From: Georhizobium profundi
Lineage (GTDB): Bacteria; Pseudomonadota; Alphaproteobacteria; Rhizobiales; Rhizobiaceae
DNA: 64,000 bases
Reading direction: 5' to 3'
Assembly (NCBI RefSeq): GCF_003952725.1
Contig: NZ_CP032509.1
Span: 2,070,001-2,134,000, forward strand
The first letter of the stretch is position 1; every line of letters starts with the position of its first letter. The translations under genes were made by a program, and so were the position numbers. The notes below the pieces were generated by a model that worked only from the letters and a program-made list of their open reading frames with translations, was not told the origin of the DNA and made no database searches. Shown here in pieces: positions 19,469-38,190 of the stretch.

Positions 19469-19970
19469 CCATAGGCGGTGTGGCAGGGTCGGCTGCAGCG
19501 TTGATGTTGACGGTGTAGAACAGAACGGCAGGTTTACGGCCGCCACGTGAGCATCTGGGACGGCGACAATGAGGTCGCTTCTTTCCGTTCTTGGTCTGCA
19601 AGAAGGATCGAGTTGGCCGCAGATTCGACGGTTCTCATTCCCGCTTGACGGAGACGCGGTGATCGGCGGCGAAAGCGCACCTCCGAGGACAATCGGCGGC
19701 TAATGGCGGGCCATGCGAGATAGCGATGAGAACTATGTCTACTCCATAGCCCTCTATCCCTCTCCTAAATAGCGACGTCTGCTTTCCACCCCATTTTTGG
19801 TCATTCAAGACTAGCTGGGGAATCTTCGAATGCAGCCATTCGCTTAGGAGGTGACAACAACGAATCCAAAGACCGGCGACGAGCACCTACCAACTACCCA
19901 CTGACGATCCTATTCCATGCGCTTGGGGGCGTCATAAATAATAGTCTTCCCTCCACGGATCGCTCCCCCG
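19469..19970. other. Non-coding/degenerate stretch after the duplicated remnants
   Basis: Apart from the repeat copy at 19655-19765 I see no gene. The minus-strand frame 19635-19886 has no family resemblance and runs through the repeat. Confidence 0.45.
19655..19765. repeat. Diverged repeat, copy 2 (partner at 13090-13200)
   Basis: Same order of shared words as copy 1 (GCGGTGATCGGCGGC, ATGGCGGGCC, GAGAACTA, CATAGCCCTCT). It lies at the same side of the anchor-gene remnant as copy 1 lies of the intact anchor gene. Confidence 0.6.
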
Positions 19971-21731
19971 TCAGTCACCGCCCTTGTCGTCGCCCCGGCT
20001 GTGATCCAAGACGACAAGATCGGGTAGCCGGTGCTCAAAGACATCGAATGGATGCATGCCGTCCGCAACAAACGCATCAATCATCGCCTCGCGCTCAGGA
20101 TCGCTGCGCCAGTGGCCCTGCGGAAATTCGAGCAGCGGGCTCACCGTGACGGCCTCATAGGCGACGCTCAGCGAACCGAGCTGAAACTCGATCATCTTGG
20201 TAACCAGCGCCTCATCGGCATGTTCGGCATAGGTCCGCAGCACATGCTGGATCAGAGCTAGGTCGCCATCGGAACGCCGTAGTAGCCGCTCGAGCGTGCG
20301 AAAATTGATCACCCTGGTGCTCTCGGCACCGAAGAACATGCCGGCATTGTCGGAGGTGATGATCAGATGCTCGATTCCGACGACAACGCCCTTGAAGTGC
20401 GGATGGCCTTCCTTCGGCAGCATCCGCGAGAGAAAACGCATGCCGTCCTCGGTTTGGATGAAGCGCTTCAGCACCTCCACCTGCCGGAAGGCCTTGGACA
20501 CGCTGTCCTTGTTGAGCACCTTGAGCTGATCCTTCGCCCAGCGCGGCGGCACCGGGCATTTCAGCTCGCACACGAACATCATATAGCCGAGCGTCGGCTC
20601 GACCGAGATTACAAGGAGGTCGATATCCGGCAACGACGCGTCGAATTCGCGCAGCGACACTTCGCTGTGGCAGATGAAGCCCTCCGCCTCCCACGCCGAC
20701 TTGACGCGTCGGACGAACGCGCTGCCGATCTCGTTGCTGACTTGCTCGAGGAAGGCGTTCGGGCGCCGCTGGGCGATGACGCGCAGCACGTTCACCAGCC
20801 CCTCCGCGATCGCGAAATGATGCGGCCGCATGACGATCCTGCCATCCGGCTCCCCCTCCCGCATCAGCGAGAAATAGCTCGCATCGACCCGTCCTGCCGT
20901 CGCGTCGCGGTCGTACACCATGTCCTTCAGGATCTTTCGCGCGGTATCAGGGCCGATGCCCAGATCCTCCTCGATCCCGTGGAGCAGATCTGTTTCCGGC
21001 ATGTAGACGGCGCCGACTGCGTCCTGCGCGCGCGCAAAATAGCGGTGGTATAGCGCCTTCATCAGCAGCATTCGGTAGACGCTCAGGAACTGCTCGTAGG
21101 TGTATCCACCCAGATCGATCTGGCTGTCGGGCGATATCAGGGAAAAATAGGCAGCGAGCTTGAGATCAGCCTCTTCGCGCATCAGCGGCTCGGCCGTTTC
21201 CAGATTGGACGTGACTACGCCCTCCGGCTCATCCTTGAGCAGGCGCAGGATCTCTTCCGAGTGGTTGAAGTCGCGGAAATAATGCTTCGACCCGAGCAAC
21301 TGATCATTGTGTACCGTGAAAAACTGCCGCGGGATCGATTTGTCCGCGAACCGAATCTCGACCCGTCCGTCCTGAAACGACCAACTCATCGCGCCGGCAA
21401 CATTGTACGAGTAATACAGGTACTCGCGGATCATGTAGAAATGCGACGCGAAGACGAGGTCCTCCATCATCTGCCTCTGGTCGGTCTCGCGTTCGATATC
21501 CGACGCGGCACCGTCCTCGCCCGAAACGAAGCGGTCCGCGAGTATCGAATAGCCGCGATCAATGTAGCCCACCTCATCGATACCCTTCTTGAAGGCGCCG
21601 ATCTCGTGAAGCTCCGACGCGAGTCGGAGCGCGCTGGTGCCCGACCAGCCTCGCGTTGGAAGCGCGTCAAGCGCCGCATCCAGCTGGCGCTCGAAATCCT
21701 GCACCTGCTTTTTCAGTTCCCGGTCCATCAT
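19971..21731 (-). CDS. Large protein with a PD-(D/E)XK-like nuclease core, helicase partner
   Basis: 586 residues, no family I can name. Residues 1-110 look helical and charged. At about 350-395 there is a pattern typical of PD-(D/E)XK nucleases: Glu357 in a strand (CHSEVSL), then LPDIDLLVIS (Asp369, Asp371), then a strand FVCELKC (Glu389-x-Lys391). A helix with Lys/Gln (AKDQLKVLNK) follows. The rest is mixed alpha/beta. It is the last of three left-reading genes after an SF2 helicase and an 80-residue protein, so it probably works with the helicase on nucleic acid. The start could be Met1 or Met2. Nuclease activity is inferred from motifs only. Confidence 0.65.
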   Translation of the reverse strand: MMDRELKKQVQDFERQLDAALDALPTRGWSGTSALRLASELHEIGAFKKGIDEVGYIDRGYSILADRFVSGEDGAASDIERETDQRQMMEDLVFASHFYMIREYLYYSYNVAGAMSWSFQDGRVEIRFADKSIPRQFFTVHNDQLLGSKHYFRDFNHSEEILRLLKDEPEGVVTSNLETAEPLMREEADLKLAAYFSLISPDSQIDLGGYTYEQFLSVYRMLLMKALYHRYFARAQDAVGAVYMPETDLLHGIEEDLGIGPDTARKILKDMVYDRDATAGRVDASYFSLMREGEPDGRIVMRPHHFAIAEGLVNVLRVIAQRRPNAFLEQVSNEIGSAFVRRVKSAWEAEGFICHSEVSLREFDASLPDIDLLVISVEPTLGYMMFVCELKCPVPPRWAKDQLKVLNKDSVSKAFRQVEVLKRFIQTEDGMRFLSRMLPKEGHPHFKGVVVGIEHLIITSDNAGMFFGAESTRVINFRTLERLLRRSDGDLALIQHVLRTYAEHADEALVTKMIEFQLGSLSVAYEAVTVSPLLEFPQGHWRSDPEREAMIDAFVADGMHPFDVFEHRLPDLVVLDHSRGDDKGGD

Positions 21732-21794
21732 CGCCCAGCTTCGTGTTGGTCGCGCGCTAGGTTTACATGCACGCAGTCATGAAGGTCCCGCACT

Positions 21795-22037
21795 TCAGGT
21801 TCCGGGCGGTGACATGCCGAGCCCTTCGTAGATGCCCTTTAACTTGGCCCAAGCCGCATCGAGCATGGGCTTTGCGGCGTCACGGCTATAGCTGTAGTCA
21901 TCGTTGGTCGCGTTTGTGCGAACAACGAGACACCACTCGCCCTTCGCAATGACGTGTGAGCTATTCCTCCGGCATTTGCGCTGGCGCTGTGCCTGCTCAA
22001 TCTTCACGTCGATCAGAATGTCCCTGACTTTAGCCAT
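21795..22037 (-). CDS. Small basic protein with possible Cys/His metal site, between helicase and nuclease-like genes
   Basis: 80 residues; its ATG overlaps the end of the helicase gene by 8 bp, so expression is coupled. It begins with a beta-like segment (VRDILIDVKIEQAQRQRKC), then CRRNSSHVIAKGEWCLVV (Cys, His and Cys spaced like a small zinc-binding knuckle) and a helical C-terminus (AAKPMLDAAWAKLKGIYEGL). I do not recognise a family. The conserved-looking position argues for a functional part of the three-gene unit. Confidence 0.6.
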   Translation of the reverse strand: MAKVRDILIDVKIEQAQRQRKCRRNSSHVIAKGEWCLVVRTNATNDDYSYSRDAAKPMLDAAWAKLKGIYEGLGMSPPGT

Positions 22038-24084
22038 CCTTCTTCCCCTTCAGGGCGTCGCGCACACTGTCTCCCAGCATGTCGAGCGCAGCCAGTGCGT
22101 CCTCGTTGTCGCCTGCGTCAGGCGCCTTACGGCTCCCAGATTTGATGCCGAGATGTTCGTTGATCGCCTTGTTCAGCAGCGACGTAACGGCAGCCCGGTT
22201 ATCACGCCCTGCGACGGTCTTATCGCGCTGGCCGACTTCTCGGCCGGCGGGCGAGAGTTTCAGATCCTTGAGAATGCGGGCGACGACGGAGCCCGTGCGT
22301 TCGGAGAGCCGCTTGCGCGCGCCAACCCGCCGCGCCTGCGGCTGCACCGGAAGGTCGCCCGCACTGCTGACTTGGGACAGCTCTTCCTGCTTTCGGCGCA
22401 GCGTCTCCCTGAGCTTGTCCTTCGCGATGACGTCGCGCAGGCGCAGGCCCGCGCCGATCTCATGTTCCAGCATCTCTTCCAGAACGCGATCATCTTCTGG
22501 ATCAAGGAACGACCGATTGATGAACGAGCCGACGATCTCGTTATCGACCAGCATCCCGATGTCGAAGCGACGAGGCTCTCCCGATCCGTCGCCATCGCCA
22601 TTCTCGTCACCGGCCTCCAGCCACTTCTTGACCATCGCCTGGTCATCGAAATCGAGTTCGCGGAAATCGTCCCAATGGGCGTCGGTGTTCAAGCCCACAT
22701 GGGAGACCACGAAGGCGTGGTTGTCCGGGTGGTCGGGCTTCGTCTCATGGACGACGCGCATCACGCGCCCAACGAACTGGATGTAGGGCGACAAGCTTGC
22801 GAACGGCCGGAAGATGGCCGCCACGCTCAGGGGCGGATGATCAAAGCCTTCGCCGAGCATCTGCACCTGCACGATGCAATCGAGCTTGCCGCTGCGCAGA
22901 TCGGCAAGAACCGCGTCCTGCTTGTCTCGATCCATCTCACCGTAGATTTCGGCCGCCTTCAGGCCCCGCTCTTCATACAGCCCGCGCACCTGGCGGGCAT
23001 GGTCGACTGAACAGGCGACGGCGATGATCTGGTGGCGGAAACCGCTGCGCTCACGCAGCTCCTGGAGGTATTTGATGCTGGCGTCGACGATGTGGCGATT
23101 GCAGTCCGGCGCCAACGCGACACCACGTCGAAACCATGCATGTTCCCGCAAGGCCATCACCTCCTCCAAGGTGTGCCGTTTCGTATCGTCGCGGTAGGTG
23201 AAGGACAGCTCTGAAGGCGCGACGTTCCGGGAGTGGATTTGCTTGATGTACCCCTTCACCATCGCCCGGGTGAAGGGGTAGCGATAGATCACTTTGCCGA
23301 CCGGCCGCGTTCCGTCACCCCGGAACGGCGTCGCCGTCAAGCTGACGACCTTGGCGTTCGGAAAACGATCGAAGACCTTCGCCCAGCTCGGGGCCACGTT
23401 GTGGTGGCCCTCGTCGATCATGATCATGTCGAAATAGTTCGGTGGAAACTGCGGGAGCCAGCGATCGGCCGCGCTGGCCAATTGGTGGATGTTGGTCACG
23501 ACGAATTGGCTCGCGTTGCAGTCGTGGAGATTGGCGTCGACGCCATCCAAGACAGCCCGGAATGGACCCGCCGAAAAATCGTGGAGCGCCCCCGTTCTCC
23601 GCCAGAAATTCTTCGGGTTGCTGATGTCGAGCGACTCCGCGACGCCCGACCGGATCGTCAAATTCGGTGTGATGACGAGCGCGCGGCCTTTGGCGACGCC
23701 GAAGGGCAATGTCGCAATGACGCCGGTCTTTCCGCACCCGACAGGAATCTGCAGGATCACCGGCTCGTTCGAGGCTTCGAAGTGGGTCCGTACTGCCCGG
23801 TGGGCGCCCTGCTGCGGCTCGCGGATCTTGGGGTTCGCCTCAATGTCCGCGGTGAGGGTCTGAAACATGTGGTTTGGCTCGTCGGCGGCCTGTTCAGCTC
23901 GCCGATACTCGAGCCGGAAGGGTTCAAGATCGGGTCGCCGATAGAAGCGATAGCCGCTTCCCGGACGACGCACCGGCTTGAGCTTGTCGGAGGCATCCCA
24001 CCGTCGAAGCGTGTCCTTCGAGACGCCGACATACTCGGCGGCCTCGGCAAGGGTTAGGAAATCAGGGGCATCATTCTGTGACAT
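22030..24084 (-). CDS. SF2 DEAD/DEAH-type helicase with N-terminal MerR/excisionase HTH
   Basis: 684 residues. Residues 8-52 form an excisionase/MerR-like winged HTH (FLTLAEAAEYVGVSKDTLRR, then GYRFYRRPDL). The helicase core follows: Walker A IPVGCGKT (113-120), motif II DEGH (224-227), motif III LTATP (249-253), and a second RecA domain with GEGFDHP and motif VI QFVGRVMR. The core is of the type III restriction/RecG-like 'ResIII' kind. The C-terminal 170 residues are charged and helical. A DNA-binding domain fused to a translocase, followed by a nuclease-like gene, fits a DNA-targeting defence complex. The substrate is unknown. Confidence 0.85.
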   Translation of the reverse strand: MSQNDAPDFLTLAEAAEYVGVSKDTLRRWDASDKLKPVRRPGSGYRFYRRPDLEPFRLEYRRAEQAADEPNHMFQTLTADIEANPKIREPQQGAHRAVRTHFEASNEPVILQIPVGCGKTGVIATLPFGVAKGRALVITPNLTIRSGVAESLDISNPKNFWRRTGALHDFSAGPFRAVLDGVDANLHDCNASQFVVTNIHQLASAADRWLPQFPPNYFDMIMIDEGHHNVAPSWAKVFDRFPNAKVVSLTATPFRGDGTRPVGKVIYRYPFTRAMVKGYIKQIHSRNVAPSELSFTYRDDTKRHTLEEVMALREHAWFRRGVALAPDCNRHIVDASIKYLQELRERSGFRHQIIAVACSVDHARQVRGLYEERGLKAAEIYGEMDRDKQDAVLADLRSGKLDCIVQVQMLGEGFDHPPLSVAAIFRPFASLSPYIQFVGRVMRVVHETKPDHPDNHAFVVSHVGLNTDAHWDDFRELDFDDQAMVKKWLEAGDENGDGDGSGEPRRFDIGMLVDNEIVGSFINRSFLDPEDDRVLEEMLEHEIGAGLRLRDVIAKDKLRETLRRKQEELSQVSSAGDLPVQPQARRVGARKRLSERTGSVVARILKDLKLSPAGREVGQRDKTVAGRDNRAAVTSLLNKAINEHLGIKSGSRKAPDAGDNEDALAALDMLGDSVRDALKGKKDG

Positions 24085-24094
24085 GCTGCAACCT

Positions 24095-24110
24095 TATGCA
24101 AAACTATGCA
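24095..24110. promoter_or_regulatory. Helically phased TATGCA direct repeats upstream of the helicase gene
   Basis: TATGCA occurs at 24095-24100 and 24105-24110, 10 bp apart, starting 11 bp before the helicase start codon. One-turn spacing is what MerR/excisionase-type HTH domains favour, so the helicase's own N-terminal domain may bind here. Confidence 0.4.
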
Positions 24111-24195
24111 TTCAGTCAAGCTTTTGGGCAACGCTTCTCGCGCACTTGGGAGCTTCGGATGCCAATAATGACGCTGCCATAAATCTCTTGCGCTC

Positions 24196-24211
24196 ATACA
24201 ATATTTTGTAT
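24196..24211. promoter_or_regulatory. Perfect AT-rich palindrome in the divergent promoter region
   Basis: ATACAA-TATT-TTGTAT is a perfect 6-bp inverted repeat centred in the 188-bp gap between the helicase and phosphoribosyltransferase genes. It is a plausible operator for one of the HTH proteins encoded nearby. Confidence 0.5.
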
Positions 24212-24272
24212 AAATCTATCGTGGCCCCGCAGGCGGCGTTCCGGGGGGAGCCTGCAAGGAACACTTTTCGTC

Positions 24273-24863
24273 ATGCAGGTTCAGGTTCGAAAGCTCGAAG
24301 GCAGTTGGGATCTCGGTTACGCGCTCCACAAGCATACGCTGTCGAGCGTCTACCTAGGCGACGACGAATACGGCCACCCTCGATTTGACACGACGCGCTC
24401 AGAGCCCGGCGAGGCGCTATTCCAAATTAAATATCGAGCCGATTGGAATCAGGTGCAGCCACTCGCAGCGCAAGTGCAGCAATCCTTGCTGCCGTTGTTC
24501 GGCAAGATCGGCCTGATTATCCCGATGCCCGCCTCAACGGTGCGTGCGCGCCAGCCAGTCAATGAGATCGCCAACGAACTCGGCAAACTGACGAAAACGC
24601 CAGTGTTCGACGACATCATCGTCAAGGCGCCCGCGCCCGAAGGCAGCTCGCAGCTCAAGAACCTGCACGGCCGCGAGGCGAAGGACGCCGCATTGGAGGG
24701 ACGGTTCAGCATCAACCCGTCCATCACCAATGAAGGGTGCTGGAACGCGCTTGTCCTTGACGATCTCTTTGACACGGGCGCCACGATGGACGCCGTCTGC
24801 AAAACGCTGCGCACGTACAAGAAGATCAACCACGTCTACGCCGCTTCGATCACATGGAAGTAA
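24273..24863 (+). CDS. ComF-like phosphoribosyltransferase-fold protein
   Basis: 196 residues. The N-terminal part is a beta-rich extension, and the core from about residue 45 is a type I PRTase fold. The PRPP-binding loop is clear, ALVLDDLFDTGATM at about 159-172, and IPMPAS at 83-88 matches the ComF-like beta strand. Unlike true ComF it lacks an N-terminal zinc finger. It probably binds or transfers a phosphoribosyl group or acts in nucleotide metabolism. It is followed 4 bp later by a SLOG-HTH gene and is divergent from the helicase unit, suggesting a nucleotide-handling arm of the same module. Confidence 0.75.
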   Translation: MQVQVRKLEGSWDLGYALHKHTLSSVYLGDDEYGHPRFDTTRSEPGEALFQIKYRADWNQVQPLAAQVQQSLLPLFGKIGLIIPMPASTVRARQPVNEIANELGKLTKTPVFDDIIVKAPAPEGSSQLKNLHGREAKDAALEGRFSINPSITNEGCWNALVLDDLFDTGATMDAVCKTLRTYKKINHVYAASITWK

Positions 24864-24867
24864 TGCC

Positions 24868-25737
24868 ATGACCACTGTCTTCATCGCCGGATCAATCTCC
24901 ATCAACCGCCTACATGAGAAGGTGGCGGATAGGATCAACAAGATCGTGTCTTCAGACTTCAACGTCGTGGTCGGAGACGCCGATGGTGCCGATACCTCAA
25001 TTCAGGAATGCCTCCAGCGGTACCAAGCCGGAAAGGTGACCGTGTATTGCACCGGGGACTCGCCCCGAAACAATGTCGCAGAATGGCCGGTCCATAGGGT
25101 CGTCTCGAAGGCGAAGGCGGGCACGCGCGCCTATTTTACCGCCAAAGACCTGGAGATGGCGCGCCACAGCGACTATGGCCTCATGGTCTGGGATTGCAAA
25201 AGCACCGGCACACTCAGCAATGTCATCGAGCTTCTTCGAGAAAAGAAGAAGTCCGTGGTCTTCGTGAACAAGAACAAGGATTTTGTCACCATATCGGACA
25301 AGGACGGCTTGGAGCGCCTTGTCGCCTTCATGTCGGATCATGCTCGCGCAAAGGCAGAAGAGAAGATTGGCCTCACCGCGAAGATCGCCAACATCGCCCA
25401 CGAACAATTCTCGCTGGACATCGGTGCGAACAGCGAATTTTCAGCAAGCCCGGTGAAGGATCTGGAGCCGTCAGCACCAGCCGAGGCGAGCCCGGAGCAG
25501 ACCGAGAGCGTAAAGTTACGCGCGGCGCTCATGACGGCGCTCAAAGAGCATATTTCCCGCGCGCATCTCAGCCAGTCTCAAGCGGCCAAAGTCTTTGGGG
25601 TGACCCAGCCGCGGATCTCAGACCTTACGCGTGGCAAGGTCGACCTGTTCGGCCTCGACGCCTTGGTTAACATGGCCGCTACGGCGGGCTTGCGCGTGGA
25701 GATGCACGTTCGCGAACCTCGCGTCACTGTCGGCTGA
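24868..25737 (+). CDS. SLOG-like nucleotide-binding domain fused to XRE-type HTH
   Basis: 289 residues from ATG 24868, four bases after the PRTase stop; the longer frame upstream overlaps that gene. Residues 3-140 look like a Rossmann-type SLOG domain (TVFIAGSISINRL, VVVGDADGADTSIQ, SDYGLMVWDCKSTGT, KSVVFVN), a fold that binds nucleotides or nucleotide-derived signals. Residues 150-210 are a helical/low-complexity linker. Residues 215-285 are a HigA-like helix-turn-helix (LSQSQAAKVFGVTQPRISDL). A ligand-sensing domain joined to a DNA-binding domain suggests a nucleotide-responsive regulator. No close named relative comes to mind. Confidence 0.75.
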   Translation: MTTVFIAGSISINRLHEKVADRINKIVSSDFNVVVGDADGADTSIQECLQRYQAGKVTVYCTGDSPRNNVAEWPVHRVVSKAKAGTRAYFTAKDLEMARHSDYGLMVWDCKSTGTLSNVIELLREKKKSVVFVNKNKDFVTISDKDGLERLVAFMSDHARAKAEEKIGLTAKIANIAHEQFSLDIGANSEFSASPVKDLEPSAPAEASPEQTESVKLRAALMTALKEHISRAHLSQSQAAKVFGVTQPRISDLTRGKVDLFGLDALVNMAATAGLRVEMHVREPRVTVG

Positions 25738-25831
25738 CACTGTTCGAGTCGGTTAGTAATGTTAGTCTGGGTGCTTCTGGGTTGCTCAGAAAGTGAGAGT
25801 AATCCGATATAACCCACTGCTCTGCCTAATG

Positions 25832-26065
25832 TTAAGGCATGTTGTCCTGTGTCGAGGGATGCTTTTTGAGCAAATCTATTGGATCAACGCCAAGCACATT
25901 GGCGAGCGCTTCGACGGTCTCCAGCGTTGCGTTTCTACGCCCAGCTTCAGCACCGCTTAGATAGGCTCGCGCTAGTCCGGCCTTTGCCGCCAGCTCTTCT
26001 TGCGACATGCCCTGTCCGCGTCTGATGCGCTGAAGGTTGATCCCAAAACTCGATTTAAGGCTCAT
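25832..26065 (-). CDS. Small XRE-family transcriptional regulator
   Basis: 77 residues from ATG 26065 (MSLKSSFGINLQRIR); the frame extends to 26083, but the later Met gives the usual length. Single HTH_3 domain: RIRRGQGMSQEELAAKAGL, ARAYLSGAEAGRRN, TLETVEALANVLGVD. It resembles the controller proteins of restriction-modification and other defence modules. It is convergent with the SLOG-HTH gene and has a palindrome (26103-26112) upstream. Confidence 0.8.
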   Translation of the reverse strand: MSLKSSFGINLQRIRRGQGMSQEELAAKAGLARAYLSGAEAGRRNATLETVEALANVLGVDPIDLLKKHPSTQDNMP

Positions 26066-26102
26066 CGGACACAAAAGTAGCATCTCTTCCTTTAATGCAA
26101 CG

Positions 26103-30973: not shown

Positions 30974-31897
30974 TCAGTTGCTGCCAAACCTCCAAACCGG
31001 GATGCCAAGCTTCTTCGCTTTGTCCGCGAGGTTGTCCTGGATGCCGGTGCCGGGAAAGACGATGACCCCGATCGGCACTACGTCCAGCATCTGATCGTTG
31101 CGCTTGAACGGGGCGGAGCGGCCGTGCTTGGTCCAGTCGGGGGCAAAACCGATCTGCGCGACGCCGCGGTGGTCGGCCCAGCGGGCAGCGATCTTCTCAG
31201 CCCCTTTCGGAGACTTGCCGTGCATTAGCACCATGTCAGGGTGCTTCGCGAGGACTTGGTCGAGCTTGGCCCAGATCAGTTGGTGGTTGTTGAAGTCGAG
31301 CCCGCCGGTCAGCGCGATCTTCGGCCCGGCGGGCAGCAGCACCTCGCGATCGGCGCGCTTGCGTGCGGCGATGAAGTCGCGGCTGTCGATCATCGCAGAG
31401 GTGAGCTGGCGATGGTTGACGCGTGAGCCATGGCGGGGAAACCAGTTCGAGCCGGTCGTCTTGCGGTAGAGGTCGGCGCCAGTGTCGCGGAAAAGTTCGA
31501 GGGCGTCGCGGCGTTCGATGAGCCGCTGTCCTGTGGCGATCAGCGCTTCGAGCTGCACGGCCTTCACCTCGGAGCCATCCTGTTCACGCTGTCCTTGCTT
31601 TTGGGCCTGCTCGTTGTCATCGAGTGTGCGTTCGACCCGTTCGACGGCGCGGTGGAAGGTGTTGACCGTTGACCACAGCAGGTCGTCGAGATCTGCGTCG
31701 AGGCCGGTATCGGCCATGGTGGCAATCAGCGCGTCGAAGATGTCGGCGACGGCGCCGGTGATCACGCGATCTTCCGGGATCGGTCGAGGATCGGGTTCAT
31801 CGTCGCGGGGATGGAAGCCGTAGAGTTGAAGCTCGGTCAGAACGTGGTCGGTGGGAGAAGAGATGTGGTCGGGCTCAAATTCGTCATGCTCGCTCAT
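30974..31897 (-). CDS. DUF2493-domain protein (SLOG-like), mobile-element associated
   Basis: 307 residues. The N-terminal half is helical and acidic (DEPDPRPIPEDR, then DIFDALIATMADTGLDADLDDL). The DUF2493 domain, a YspA-like Rossmann fold, lies in the C-terminal 125 residues: KIALTGGLDFNNHQLIW, DMVLMHGKSPKGAEKIAARWA, GIQDNLADKAKKLGIPVWRFG. Genes of this kind recur next to toprim and ArdC genes on alphaproteobacterial plasmids and ICEs. Function unknown; nucleotide binding is likely from the fold. Confidence 0.85.
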   Translation of the reverse strand: MSEHDEFEPDHISSPTDHVLTELQLYGFHPRDDEPDPRPIPEDRVITGAVADIFDALIATMADTGLDADLDDLLWSTVNTFHRAVERVERTLDDNEQAQKQGQREQDGSEVKAVQLEALIATGQRLIERRDALELFRDTGADLYRKTTGSNWFPRHGSRVNHRQLTSAMIDSRDFIAARKRADREVLLPAGPKIALTGGLDFNNHQLIWAKLDQVLAKHPDMVLMHGKSPKGAEKIAARWADHRGVAQIGFAPDWTKHGRSAPFKRNDQMLDVVPIGVIVFPGTGIQDNLADKAKKLGIPVWRFGSN

Positions 31898-34938: not shown

Positions 34939-36186
34939 CTATAGCGCCAGCGCCCGTTTGAGATCGTCATGATCGAAGGCGCTGGCCATCCGGGCTATTT
35001 CGGCCGGACGTGCGCCGACCGTCCTGGCCGTGTCGCGCCAAGTCGCGGTTACCGTTGCGACATCTTTGATGATTGCGCGGGCCTGAGCGAGCGTGAGCGC
35101 GAAGTACTCTGATGCCTTCTCTAAAAGATCGAGCGAGCAGGTACCCTCGTCGAGATCGATGTTTGTCGTAAGGACGCGCGCCTTGAGGTCTGCGGGCACC
35201 GGATTAAGGTCGTAAGCGGGCGAGAGCGACCATCCAGCCTTGCCGAGCCAAAGAAATCCATGGTTGCGCAGATGATCGTCGACATTAGAGATCAGGACGT
35301 TGAAGACGACGCGCCGATAGAGCGCGTGAGCGTCGGTCTTACCCTTAGCGCCATGCCTGGCGAGCGCATCGACGATCTCCGGATAGCTGCCCCGATCGCC
35401 ATCCTTGGCGCCCATCATTGCCATGGCTGAAAGAAAGGGGATGCGGACCGGGCCATCCCGGTCGAATCGTCTTGAAAGCATCACCGACTTGCCGGCGATT
35501 TCGACCAGTTGGTGTTGTGGTGTGACTATGCTGGCTTGTCCAGCCAGTCGCAGCGCGATCTCCTCCCAGGTTTCAATGCTATATTCGTCCGTCTCTTTCG
35601 GAAACTTGGCGATGGAGAGATGGTCATGGTGATCGATGATCGACGCTTTCGGTCGCGCGCCCCCGAGAGACGAACCAGGTGCGAAGATGAGTTGAAGATC
35701 TTCGTCTGTTTCCTCGTCTCGCAGGATACGCTCGGTGATCTGAAGCAAACGGCCAAGTTCCATCATCGCCGGCACGCCGTCCCTGATCGGCGCCTGGAAG
35801 GTCTCATCGCCAACCCGTCGAAACCGGAGGGCGCCGAGTCGGGTCTGATCTGCAACTCCGAGCAAGTAGTCGCTTTCCGCGAGCGTGCGAATGGCGCGGC
35901 TCTCATGATCGGCGAGGCGACGCTCGGCGCGCTGCATGAGGCGCCGGCCCCAGGTGTCCGGCGCCGAGTCGCCTATCGAACCAAAGGTCGCGAGGCCAGC
36001 AGGCGGAGCAAAGGCCCCGCGCGTCAGCGCAAGCGCCGGCTCCAGCGAAAAGCGATCGGGATCCTCCAGCCATGCGCGGTCGTACTCAAAGAGAATGGTC
36101 TCCGTTCCGCGGACACGATTGCTCCTGGCCAATCCAATTGAGCGTGTGCGGCCGTGCAGATCGATGTGAACTTCGAAGTCAGTCAT
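34939..36186 (-). CDS. hipA: HipA-family serine/threonine kinase toxin
   Basis: 415 residues from ATG 36186, which overlaps the hipB-like gene by 8 bp; upstream codons of the frame belong to hipB. Features include the HipA N-terminal subdomain (RGAFAPPAGLATFGSIGDSA), the Gly/Ser loop SSLGGARPKASI, the lysine in SIAKFPKETD, and the catalytic motif NVLISNVDDHLRNHGF. HipA kinases phosphorylate glutamyl-tRNA synthetase or other targets and cause persistence. Here it is likely an island-stabilising toxin-antitoxin pair. Confidence 0.9.
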   Translation of the reverse strand: MTDFEVHIDLHGRTRSIGLARSNRVRGTETILFEYDRAWLEDPDRFSLEPALALTRGAFAPPAGLATFGSIGDSAPDTWGRRLMQRAERRLADHESRAIRTLAESDYLLGVADQTRLGALRFRRVGDETFQAPIRDGVPAMMELGRLLQITERILRDEETDEDLQLIFAPGSSLGGARPKASIIDHHDHLSIAKFPKETDEYSIETWEEIALRLAGQASIVTPQHQLVEIAGKSVMLSRRFDRDGPVRIPFLSAMAMMGAKDGDRGSYPEIVDALARHGAKGKTDAHALYRRVVFNVLISNVDDHLRNHGFLWLGKAGWSLSPAYDLNPVPADLKARVLTTNIDLDEGTCSLDLLEKASEYFALTLAQARAIIKDVATVTATWRDTARTVGARPAEIARMASAFDHDDLKRALAL

Positions 36187-36514
36187 CCGAAGACGATCCG
36201 GTTGGCCGCTTGATATGAACATGCTTGGGCAGGTCGGCACTGGCCAGCACCTGTCCGACACTGTCGTTGCTGATGTCGGCGACCCGGCCTAGCTCTTCAA
36301 GCAAGCCAAGGGCTTGAAGGACGCCTGCATAGATGCCGATGCTGACACTGGTGTCTCCAGCTTCGATCTTTTGCAGGGTTGAGCGGGAGGTAAAGGCACG
36401 CTCCGCCACTACCGCCATCGGCAGTTTGCGGCGGCGGCGGGCATCTCGGATATCCGCCCCGAGTTTGCGCAGAACGCGGCGCACAGCCGCTGGAGGAGTA
36501 TGGGGAGTGGGCAT
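36179..36514 (-). CDS. hipB: HipB-like XRE antitoxin
   Basis: 111 residues from ATG 36514. HTH at about 12-70 (RRVLRKLGADIRDARRRRKL, MAVVAERAFTSRSTLQKIEAG). The C-terminal tail (KHVHIKRPTGSSSDD) is polar and may contact the kinase. It overlaps hipA by 8 bp. Typical type II antitoxin that also represses its own operon. Confidence 0.85.
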   Translation of the reverse strand: MPTPHTPPAAVRRVLRKLGADIRDARRRRKLPMAVVAERAFTSRSTLQKIEAGDTSVSIGIYAGVLQALGLLEELGRVADISNDSVGQVLASADLPKHVHIKRPTGSSSDD

Positions 36515-36665
36515 TGTCACCTTCGCACTACAGATCCGGAAAATATGTAGCACGAAGATTACATTTTATCCAGAGTCGGTCACGGTCTCTCCGAGACGAT
36601 CTGTGATGGCACCACGCAGTTTCACGTCGCGCTTAAGACACGTACACCGAAGCTGCATCGCAATT

Positions 36666-38000
36666 TCAACTCGGCAAATTGTTGGTCACGACCAGATCCG
36701 TGTCGAGAAGGCGCGCCATACTGGCCAGGCGCGCCTTGCGATCCAACGCATAGGTCATCCGCCTGAACTGAACGCCGTTCAGCAGGCCTTGAATGTACCC
36801 TGCAACTGTGTCGGCGGCCGTGATCAGTGCTGTGTCAACGTTGTGGATGTAACGGCTTGTAATGGTCCCTTGTGCGTGACCAAGCAGCGCCGCCACAGTG
36901 GACTCGGTAAATCCGAGATCGTTGGCGATGCTCGCAAAGCTGTGCCGAAGCACATGCGGGGTGATATCGGCCAATGGGGAGTCACCAAGGATCTTATTCC
37001 AGTGCTTCGGAAAACCAATAAGCGGTTTGCCAGCGATGGTGCCCTCGAAGACCGGACCAGCGAGGGCGTCCGAGCCCCGCTGCTCCAACAGGTCGACAAC
37101 GGGTAGTCCGACTGGCCGCACCGAGGCGCCTTCCTTGCTGTCCCGGAGCCGAAGACAGCTGTTCTCGGTGTCCACCTCGCGCCAGTCGAGGTCGATGATT
37201 TCACCTCGTCGGCAGCCGGTTAAGGCGATCGCACGGGCAATCGCGGCGGCGGTCGCAAGCTGATCATCAGCGGACGCCTTCCGGAGCAACTGACCAAGAA
37301 TCCGGTATTCCGCTTCGGATAGACGGCGACTACGCTTCTGATAGGCGGCTTTTCTGATCCCGTGTGCGGGATTGATCTCAATAATTCCGTTCTCGCGCGC
37401 GTATGTCAGAAGGGCTCCGAGAAATCCAACCGTCCGCGTACCGGTGCCGATGCCTCCCCGGACGATTGCTCGGCCGCGCTGACATGTCTTCTGATTTGCT
37501 CTTGTTTTCCCTGACGCGACATCACGCATGAAGCGCGTAATGTCGGCAGGGGTGAGGTCCTTCACGCGGCGTGTCCCTAGCAACGGTATAATGTGCCGTC
37601 TGATCCGCCCCTCGTCAGTGTAGATCGTTGACGCTTTTTTGGGTCGTCGCCCTTTGCCAAGGATCAAGCCAGCCTTCGCGTCATCGATGTAAAGCGTGCA
37701 CAGTTCCTTGACGGTGATTGCTTTGTGATCGAGCTGCTTCTCCTCGGCGGGGTTGGCTCCGTCCGCTATGCGGCCAAGGAGAACACGCGCTTCCTTGCGC
37801 GCCGTTTCCGGCGTCCAAACGCCATGCGGACCTATTGTGAACCGGCGGGTGCGGCCCTTCGCTCGATATTGGAGGACATAACTGCGCTTGCCTGTCGCGA
37901 ACACGCGCAGTCCGAAACCGGACAAATCATCATCCCAGACAATGTAGTCGTTCGCCCTGATTTCGAGTTGGTCGACTGTGCGCTTATTGAGTTTCGGCAT
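36666..38000 (-). CDS. int: Tyrosine-type integrase (P4-like) of the genomic island
   Basis: 444 residues from ATG 38000 (MPKLNKRTVDQLE, the usual start of this group); the frame continues to 38042. The N-terminal DUF4102-like DNA-arm domain (DYIVWDDDLSGFGLRVFATG) is followed by a core-binding domain at about 110-210. The catalytic residues are Arg in LTGCRRGEI, His-x-x-Arg in HVLRHSFAS, His in LLGHAQ and Tyr in SRYIHN. It catalyses site-specific integration into and excision from a tRNA 3' end. The gene starts 190 bp from a tRNA-Arg 3' half, as expected for this family. Confidence 0.93.
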   Translation of the reverse strand: MPKLNKRTVDQLEIRANDYIVWDDDLSGFGLRVFATGKRSYVLQYRAKGRTRRFTIGPHGVWTPETARKEARVLLGRIADGANPAEEKQLDHKAITVKELCTLYIDDAKAGLILGKGRRPKKASTIYTDEGRIRRHIIPLLGTRRVKDLTPADITRFMRDVASGKTRANQKTCQRGRAIVRGGIGTGTRTVGFLGALLTYARENGIIEINPAHGIRKAAYQKRSRRLSEAEYRILGQLLRKASADDQLATAAAIARAIALTGCRRGEIIDLDWREVDTENSCLRLRDSKEGASVRPVGLPVVDLLEQRGSDALAGPVFEGTIAGKPLIGFPKHWNKILGDSPLADITPHVLRHSFASIANDLGFTESTVAALLGHAQGTITSRYIHNVDTALITAADTVAGYIQGLLNGVQFRRMTYALDRKARLASMARLLDTDLVVTNNLPS

Positions 38001-38190
38001 CTCGAACATCCCCAGGTTTGACGCCACGCAGGCGTTTTTCACGGAAGCACCACGGAAGCAGTCAAGAGGAAACTTTGACGAATTATTGGATACGCGCTTC
38101 GGCTAGGCAAGCAAGAAAATTCAATCTACGTAGTAGGTTATCGGGCTTTCTTCGTAAAAAAGAAACGCTGGCAAAAACCTTCCGGACACG

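Follow-up and report, generated by a model that had tools for sequence, protein, structure and literature searches.

What kind of system do five divergently arranged genes of Georhizobium profundi encode, and do their two arms belong together? A sequence-only reading of a 64,000-nucleotide stretch (contig NZ_CP032509.1, positions 2,070,001 to 2,134,000; hereafter the window, whose own numbering is used throughout) proposed an undescribed defence module. Its left arm comprised a nuclease-like protein (A), a small protein (B), and a helicase (C); its right arm comprised a phosphoribosyltransferase (PRTase; D), a SLOG–helix-turn-helix (HTH) protein (E), and, beyond these, a small XRE regulator (F). 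Sequence comparison indicates that genes A to E travel between genomes as one block. We lean toward viewing this block as a mobile compound defence cassette of two layers, in which a helicase-nuclease attack would be combined with a PRTase abortive-infection and addiction module.

The gene layout stands as proposed: all open reading frames (ORFs) were confirmed, and A, B, and C read leftward, divergent from D-E across the 188 base pairs (bp) that separate C from D (Table 1). The likely start of E lies 4 bp past the end of D. Between the window and Altericroceibacterium endophyticum (L003), the ratio of nonsynonymous to synonymous substitution rates (dN/dS) is 0.04–0.15 for all five genes, at dS 0.06–0.24; in closer pairs, where changes are few, it reaches 0.27. 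Since these values are well below 1 in all five genes, these are not chance ORFs; they are under purifying selection.

Table 1. Features of the locus, in window coordinates
Feature	Coordinates	Strand or position	Description
Shared mobile block with A to E	19705-25790		about six kilobases; 94-98% nucleotide identity elsewhere
A	19971-21731	-	586 amino acids (aa); predicted PD-(D/E)XK protein, no family model; N-terminal half mostly helical
B	21795-22037	-	80 aa; start overlaps the stop of C
C	22030-24084	-	684 aa; MerR-type HTH and RadD-like superfamily 2 (SF2) helicase
TATGCA-N4-TATGCA tandem	24095-24110	before C	candidate binding site for the HTH of C itself
ATACAA-N4-TTGTAT palindrome	24196-24211	before D	predicted operator of E
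D	24273-24863	+	196 aa; stand-alone PRTase, related to PsyrT/ShosT; predicted toxin
E	24868-25737	+	289 aa; SLOG-like domain and HTH_37; predicted antitoxin/repressor
F	25832-26083	-	XRE regulator, beyond the shared block

The block recurs in Methylopila capsulata (L002; window 19704–25790, 98.2% identity), A. endophyticum (19691–25790, 94.2%), an IMG/VR contig (L001; 19951–25790, 95.8%), and a Paracoccus aminovorans plasmid (L061; 21460–25790, 94.8%). The Mesorhizobium microcysteis sequence (L004) begins inside it (19705–21745, 93.0%); a further copy, L070, is identical to L002 over 3,867 bp and is not a separate case. Next to the block these loci have nothing in common with the window, apart from L004 and L061, which show flanking matches of 65–76% to genes far from it. 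At the A end the junction is common to the window, L002, L003, and L004, which diverge right after ...GGCCCGCC; L001 ends 246 bp earlier than the other copies. No such shared junction is supported at the D-E end: only the window breaks off at 25790, which is its own junction, and L001, L002, L003, and L061 have a further 195 bp or more in common. L002 and L003 share 5.2 kilobases (kb) further on this side, encoding Lamassu (LmuB, 2e-209). (Lamassu lies at 491–5745 in L002 and 495–5748 in L003, and the shared stretch of L002 begins at the 3' end of a tRNA-Ser gene.)

No exact 12-bp match joins the two block ends in L001–L003, nor an 11-bp match in the window. The block-end motif occurs once in the host genome and matched no viral contig. 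(Thirty-two bp of the block end also lie on a Rhizobium gallicum plasmid, L091 6001–6032, without the genes.) The link between the arms, drawn earlier from adjacency alone, is now based on co-transfer of one block. F falls outside it in every comparison, and is rejected as a member of the unit.

The right arm, read earlier as an unassigned signalling arm, is related to toxin-antitoxin defence pairs of the PRTase/DprA-like type that are already described. D carries the phosphoribosyl pyrophosphate (PRPP) motif LVLDDLFDTGATM. Its PRTase match in Pfam is weak (1.8e-3), as is that to ShosT in PADLOC (1.1e-3); it aligns to residues 575–680 of PADLOC PsyrT at E 2.8e-6, and relatives of D match the C-terminal PRTase of PsyrT at 5e-8 to 1e-17. 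In a profile-profile comparison, D matches the PRTases of ShosTA loci linked to A with a probability of 96%. E ends in an HTH_37 domain (residues 208–284; Pfam, 2e-21). Its N-terminal region matches no SLOG family in Pfam at E 1; a moderate match to a DprA profile (probability 64%, E 6e-5, 131 columns) supports calling this domain SLOG-like. Passages of PMC4670107 describe RqlI, a DprA-like protein with a dispensable C-terminal HTH, as curbing the toxic PRTase domain of the helicase RqlH, and a DprA and PRTase pair is reported in PMC9122126 to defend against T7 and lambda. D-E is not new in kind: it is a two-gene PRTase/SLOG pair related to PsyrTA/RqlHI and ShosTA, in which D is predicted to be toxic and E to neutralise it.

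Outside the block lineage, D lies immediately upstream of E in all 15 SLOG loci examined (L044–L048, L062–L069, L071, and L072). The pair is often plasmid-borne and often alone; several copies stand beside partition, ParDE-type, or restriction-modification genes. (The plasmid loci are 9 of the 45 plasmid records matching E, and the Escherichia coli loci 3 of 58.) Complete E. coli genomes contain a homologous pair, at about 71% nucleotide identity, in 58 cases of 5426 (54 with at least 80% cover), so a first bench test is simple. Within the host's class, E is matched at E≤1e-10 in 16 of 385 genomes, with the match falling in the SLOG part for six and confined to the HTH for ten; phage records contain no match at E≤1e-20. 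On one E. coli chromosome, near yfgI (L081 4862–7449), the neighbours of D-E are another PRTase, which is PsyrT-like (2e-18), and an ABC-three-component system.

A conserved palindrome accompanies the pair. ATACAA-N4-TTGTAT starts 54–78 bp upstream of D in 13 of the 14 loci with the window's HTH, scored by tblastn at 1e-3 (the window; L001–L003; L061–L063; L065; L070; L071; and E. coli L081–L083, with the palindrome kept in L083 even where E is annotated as split). It is present in none of the ten loci without that HTH (L044–L048, L066–L069, and L072); in one of these, L045, E bears a different C-terminal extension. The 13 loci represent about four lineages: the block with L062; L063; L065 with L071; and E. 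coli. When divergent lineages are compared, the palindrome accounts for most or all of the similarity in the 300 bp upstream; the window and L063 share one further 11-bp match, and the closely related L062 aligns over the full stretch. When five upstream regions were shuffled base by base, the palindrome core arose in 1–8 of 20,000 cases, and the whole host genome holds one site. A two-gene unit with such a palindrome would fit an autoregulatory arrangement, with E as the predicted binding protein and repressor. On the other side of the intergenic region, the TATGCA tandem precedes all six scanned C genes that face D-E, as well as that of L070, the copy of L002. Loci L055 and L056 have one exact TATGCA half and a one-base variant; the tandem was not found before C in L057 and L058.

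In the left arm, A matches no family at E≤1 in Pfam, PADLOC, or NCBIfam, and its assignment to a named family was rejected. Across 24 aligned homologues, residues D369, D371, E389, K391, and Q417 are invariant. The predicted structure (predicted local distance difference test score, 85.8) bears out the nuclease call of the sequence-only reading: nuclease folds make up most VIA rows for residues 331–498. The invariant D...ExK residues and this modelled fold together identify A as a predicted PD-(D/E)XK nuclease, which would cut DNA. A Foldseek search gave no match at E≤0.001, and sequence searches of the PDB yielded no convincing relative of A or E. A is rare: among 385 genomes of the host's class it was found in one, the host itself (E≤1e-10), and IMG/VR holds no A or E loci besides the L001 contig. 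(A plasmid of Rhizobium sp. ACO-34A has a fragment match over 20% of A.)

C contains MerR (residues 12–48), ResIII (86–255), and Helicase_C (338–444) domains in Pfam, with four helicase motifs intact: GCGKTG, DEGHH, TATP, and FVGRVMR. Within NCBIfam it comes closest to RadD, a repair helicase, although the match (3e-22) falls well short of the cut-off of the RadD model. B is kept after C elsewhere, at 88% in L055 and 73% in L056. (At L056 5379–8346, C-B also lies near two proteins named by sequence reading: one DarT-like, the other PurA-like and resembling a kinase in its N-terminal part.) The earlier domain calls, and the placing of these genes among conflict systems, hold up.

With the block lineage and L004 set aside, 21 A loci were counted (L005–L022 and L024–L026), some of which end at contig ends. 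ShosTA-type genes lie within 10 kb of A in nine of them (L009, L011, L014, L015, L016, L018, L024, L025, and L026) and directly adjoin it in eight; in L014 only a HAD-PRTase is visible before the contig ends. PADLOC names ShosA/ShosT in L009, L024, L018, and L026, and the PRTase of L011; the others are assigned by similarity to these. Because L014, L015, and L018 are 94–99.9% alike, the adjacent cases amount to about six independent ones. They span Alphaproteobacteria, Streptomyces, and a Holophagaceae metagenome-assembled genome, whose A is 69% identical to that of the window, so that a binning error is possible there. In L011 and L026, ShosT lies at most 40 bp ahead of A on the same strand. 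ShosT itself was found in 7 of 190 class genomes (E≤1e-15), so chance vicinity of A and ShosT should be rare, although clustering in defence islands raises it and the comparison is uncontrolled for that. The remaining A loci include three with an AAA-Mrr partner (L005, L006, and L021) and nine with neither PRTase/SLOG nor AAA-Mrr genes; ORFs were called mechanically, and for some the strand may be wrong. (In L014, L015, and L018, A adjoins a HAD-PRTase fusion, which is ShosT in L018; the cluster in L015 and L018 also has two DprA-like genes and a second PRTase.)

In the two-layer cassette that we favour, C with B would engage foreign or abnormal DNA and would bring in or license A, which would cut that DNA. 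In the second layer, E would bind the palindrome ahead of D, repress its own operon, and keep D inactive. Release of D would follow either infection or cassette loss, and D would then arrest the cell by a PRPP-dependent reaction whose target would be a nucleotide or DNA. Since either event could free D, the D-E pair would be both abortive-infection arm and addiction module.

Several observations weigh against such a cassette. Among the 13 of the 15 D-E loci with at least 8 kb of sequence, 12 lack A, B, and C altogether. Conversely, 12 of the 21 A loci are without PRTase/SLOG genes, and in L055 and L056 C-B is followed by other genes, with neither A nor D-E present. No A lies near any of the seven ShosT loci sampled from the class (a ShosA-like DprA is nearby in only three, L084–L086, and two spanned less than 10 kb), and A as a core part of ShosTA was rejected. 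In the Paracoccus plasmid (L061) A is cut to about 99 codons with D-E intact, and a Polymorphobacter plasmid (L062) has D-E with a truncated divergent C and without B and A; it looks as if D-E is kept more strictly. Within the pair, the SLOG call hangs on the one DprA profile comparison; E matches neither PsyrA nor ShosA in PADLOC at E≤1 (among five E relatives, only L044 matched the PsyrA model, at 0.02); and L064, where HTH and SLOG are on separate ORFs, is the only HTH locus lacking the palindrome. Because A, C-B, and D-E each occur without the others, the five genes were probably brought together recently; they form a recurring block, not an obligate association.

The most serious rival holds that two independent systems are neighbours: C-B-A would be a restriction-like helicase-nuclease, and D-E a selfish addiction pair that keeps its carrier stable. 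We consider this appreciably less probable than the cassette, and still a live contender. It would account for D-E standing alone on several plasmids beside partition and toxin-antitoxin genes, for C-B without D-E, and for the palindrome, which goes with D-E and is present without C in L063, L065, and L081. Independence sits less easily with the co-transfer, in several genomes, of all five genes and the 188-bp region that they share, or with A beside other PRTase/SLOG pairs (ShosTA) oftener than random, a comparison in which island clustering is uncontrolled. The sequence fits arms that cooperate as well as arms that simply share a vehicle.

A stronger form of cooperation would make A the founder of an accessory effector family, recruited repeatedly by PRTase/SLOG sensor pairs of both the ShosTA and the SLOG-HTH kind; E, bound in the intergenic region, would control both arms, releasing a PRTase to halt the cell and licensing a helicase-nuclease to destroy the invading DNA. 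We regard this as unlikely. Improbable, in our judgment, is a single integrated, "exploded" RqlHI/PsyrTA, with C as the helicase, D as the PRTase, E as the SLOG-HTH regulator, and A as an added effector under E. The set of domain types is that of RqlH plus RqlI as they are described in passages of PMC4670107, the PsyrT model aligns to D, and C faces D-E in the block, L061, and L062; yet by its matched families C is RadD/ResIII-like, not RecQ-like, and C and D-E are mostly found apart, as noted above. That the genes form a DNA repair or element-maintenance cassette, as the kinship of C with RadD might suggest, is hardly credible given their sporadic distribution, their transfer between genomes, and the Lamassu, CBASS-like, type IIG restriction-modification, and ShosTA genes that neighbour the block or other A genes.

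Passages of PMC9122126 and PMC4670107 leave open by what means PRTase/DprA-like pairs detect phage and what the PRTase modifies. The locus offers a compact PRTase/SLOG subtype with a predicted operator and an E. coli homologue, along with a nuclease family that stands beside ShosTA in several lineages. If A is a true partner, PRTase toxins would be linked to DNA destruction, and the block would show defence modules recombining into one transferable unit.

The wider setting was also read earlier as an integrative element. A tyrosine integrase is indeed encoded at 36669–38042 of the window; membership of the block in that element is a candidate assignment. A HipA_C protein adjoins the integrase (34942–38042, minus strand), and the two are marks of an integrative element. 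Near the HipA gene, window 33613–34886 matches the Paracoccus plasmid L061 (11451–15978) in pieces at about 75%. About 5 kb from the block lies a second SLOG protein (307 aa; 30977–31897, minus strand; PF10686 YAcAr, 3e-29).

How does the locus compare with known systems? No Ham model of Hachiman HamAB matches A or C at E≤1, and A matches no PADLOC family, Shedu included, at that threshold; both systems differ further from this locus, which has the D-E arm. Upx (PDB 9wuf, "Cryo-EM structure of Upx"), a chain of 1212 residues, aligns to A with 12% identity and a root-mean-square deviation of 6.9. PsyrTA/RqlHI is nearer: D is related to the PRTase of PsyrT, and E, with its moderately matched SLOG part, would share its domain order with RqlI as described in PMC4670107. 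Here, however, the PRTase is a separate protein and not fused to a RecQ-like helicase; the neighbouring helicase is RadD/ResIII-like and mostly missing at other D-E loci; E lacks a PsyrA match; and the cassette adds B and nuclease A. ShosTA shares the two-gene arrangement of PRTase and DprA-like protein, and its PRTases resemble D at the profile level. It differs from this locus, where E has no ShosA match and where the HTH fusion, the palindrome, the helicase, and B are found. The five-gene combination was not found described in the listed titles and abstracts of the PRTase-toxin, SLOG, and Upx literature, a listing with few subscription papers. The claim of an undescribed system is thereby narrowed: the kind of pair that D-E represents was already known, whereas nuclease family A and the combination of five genes appear new within the libraries and literature searched.

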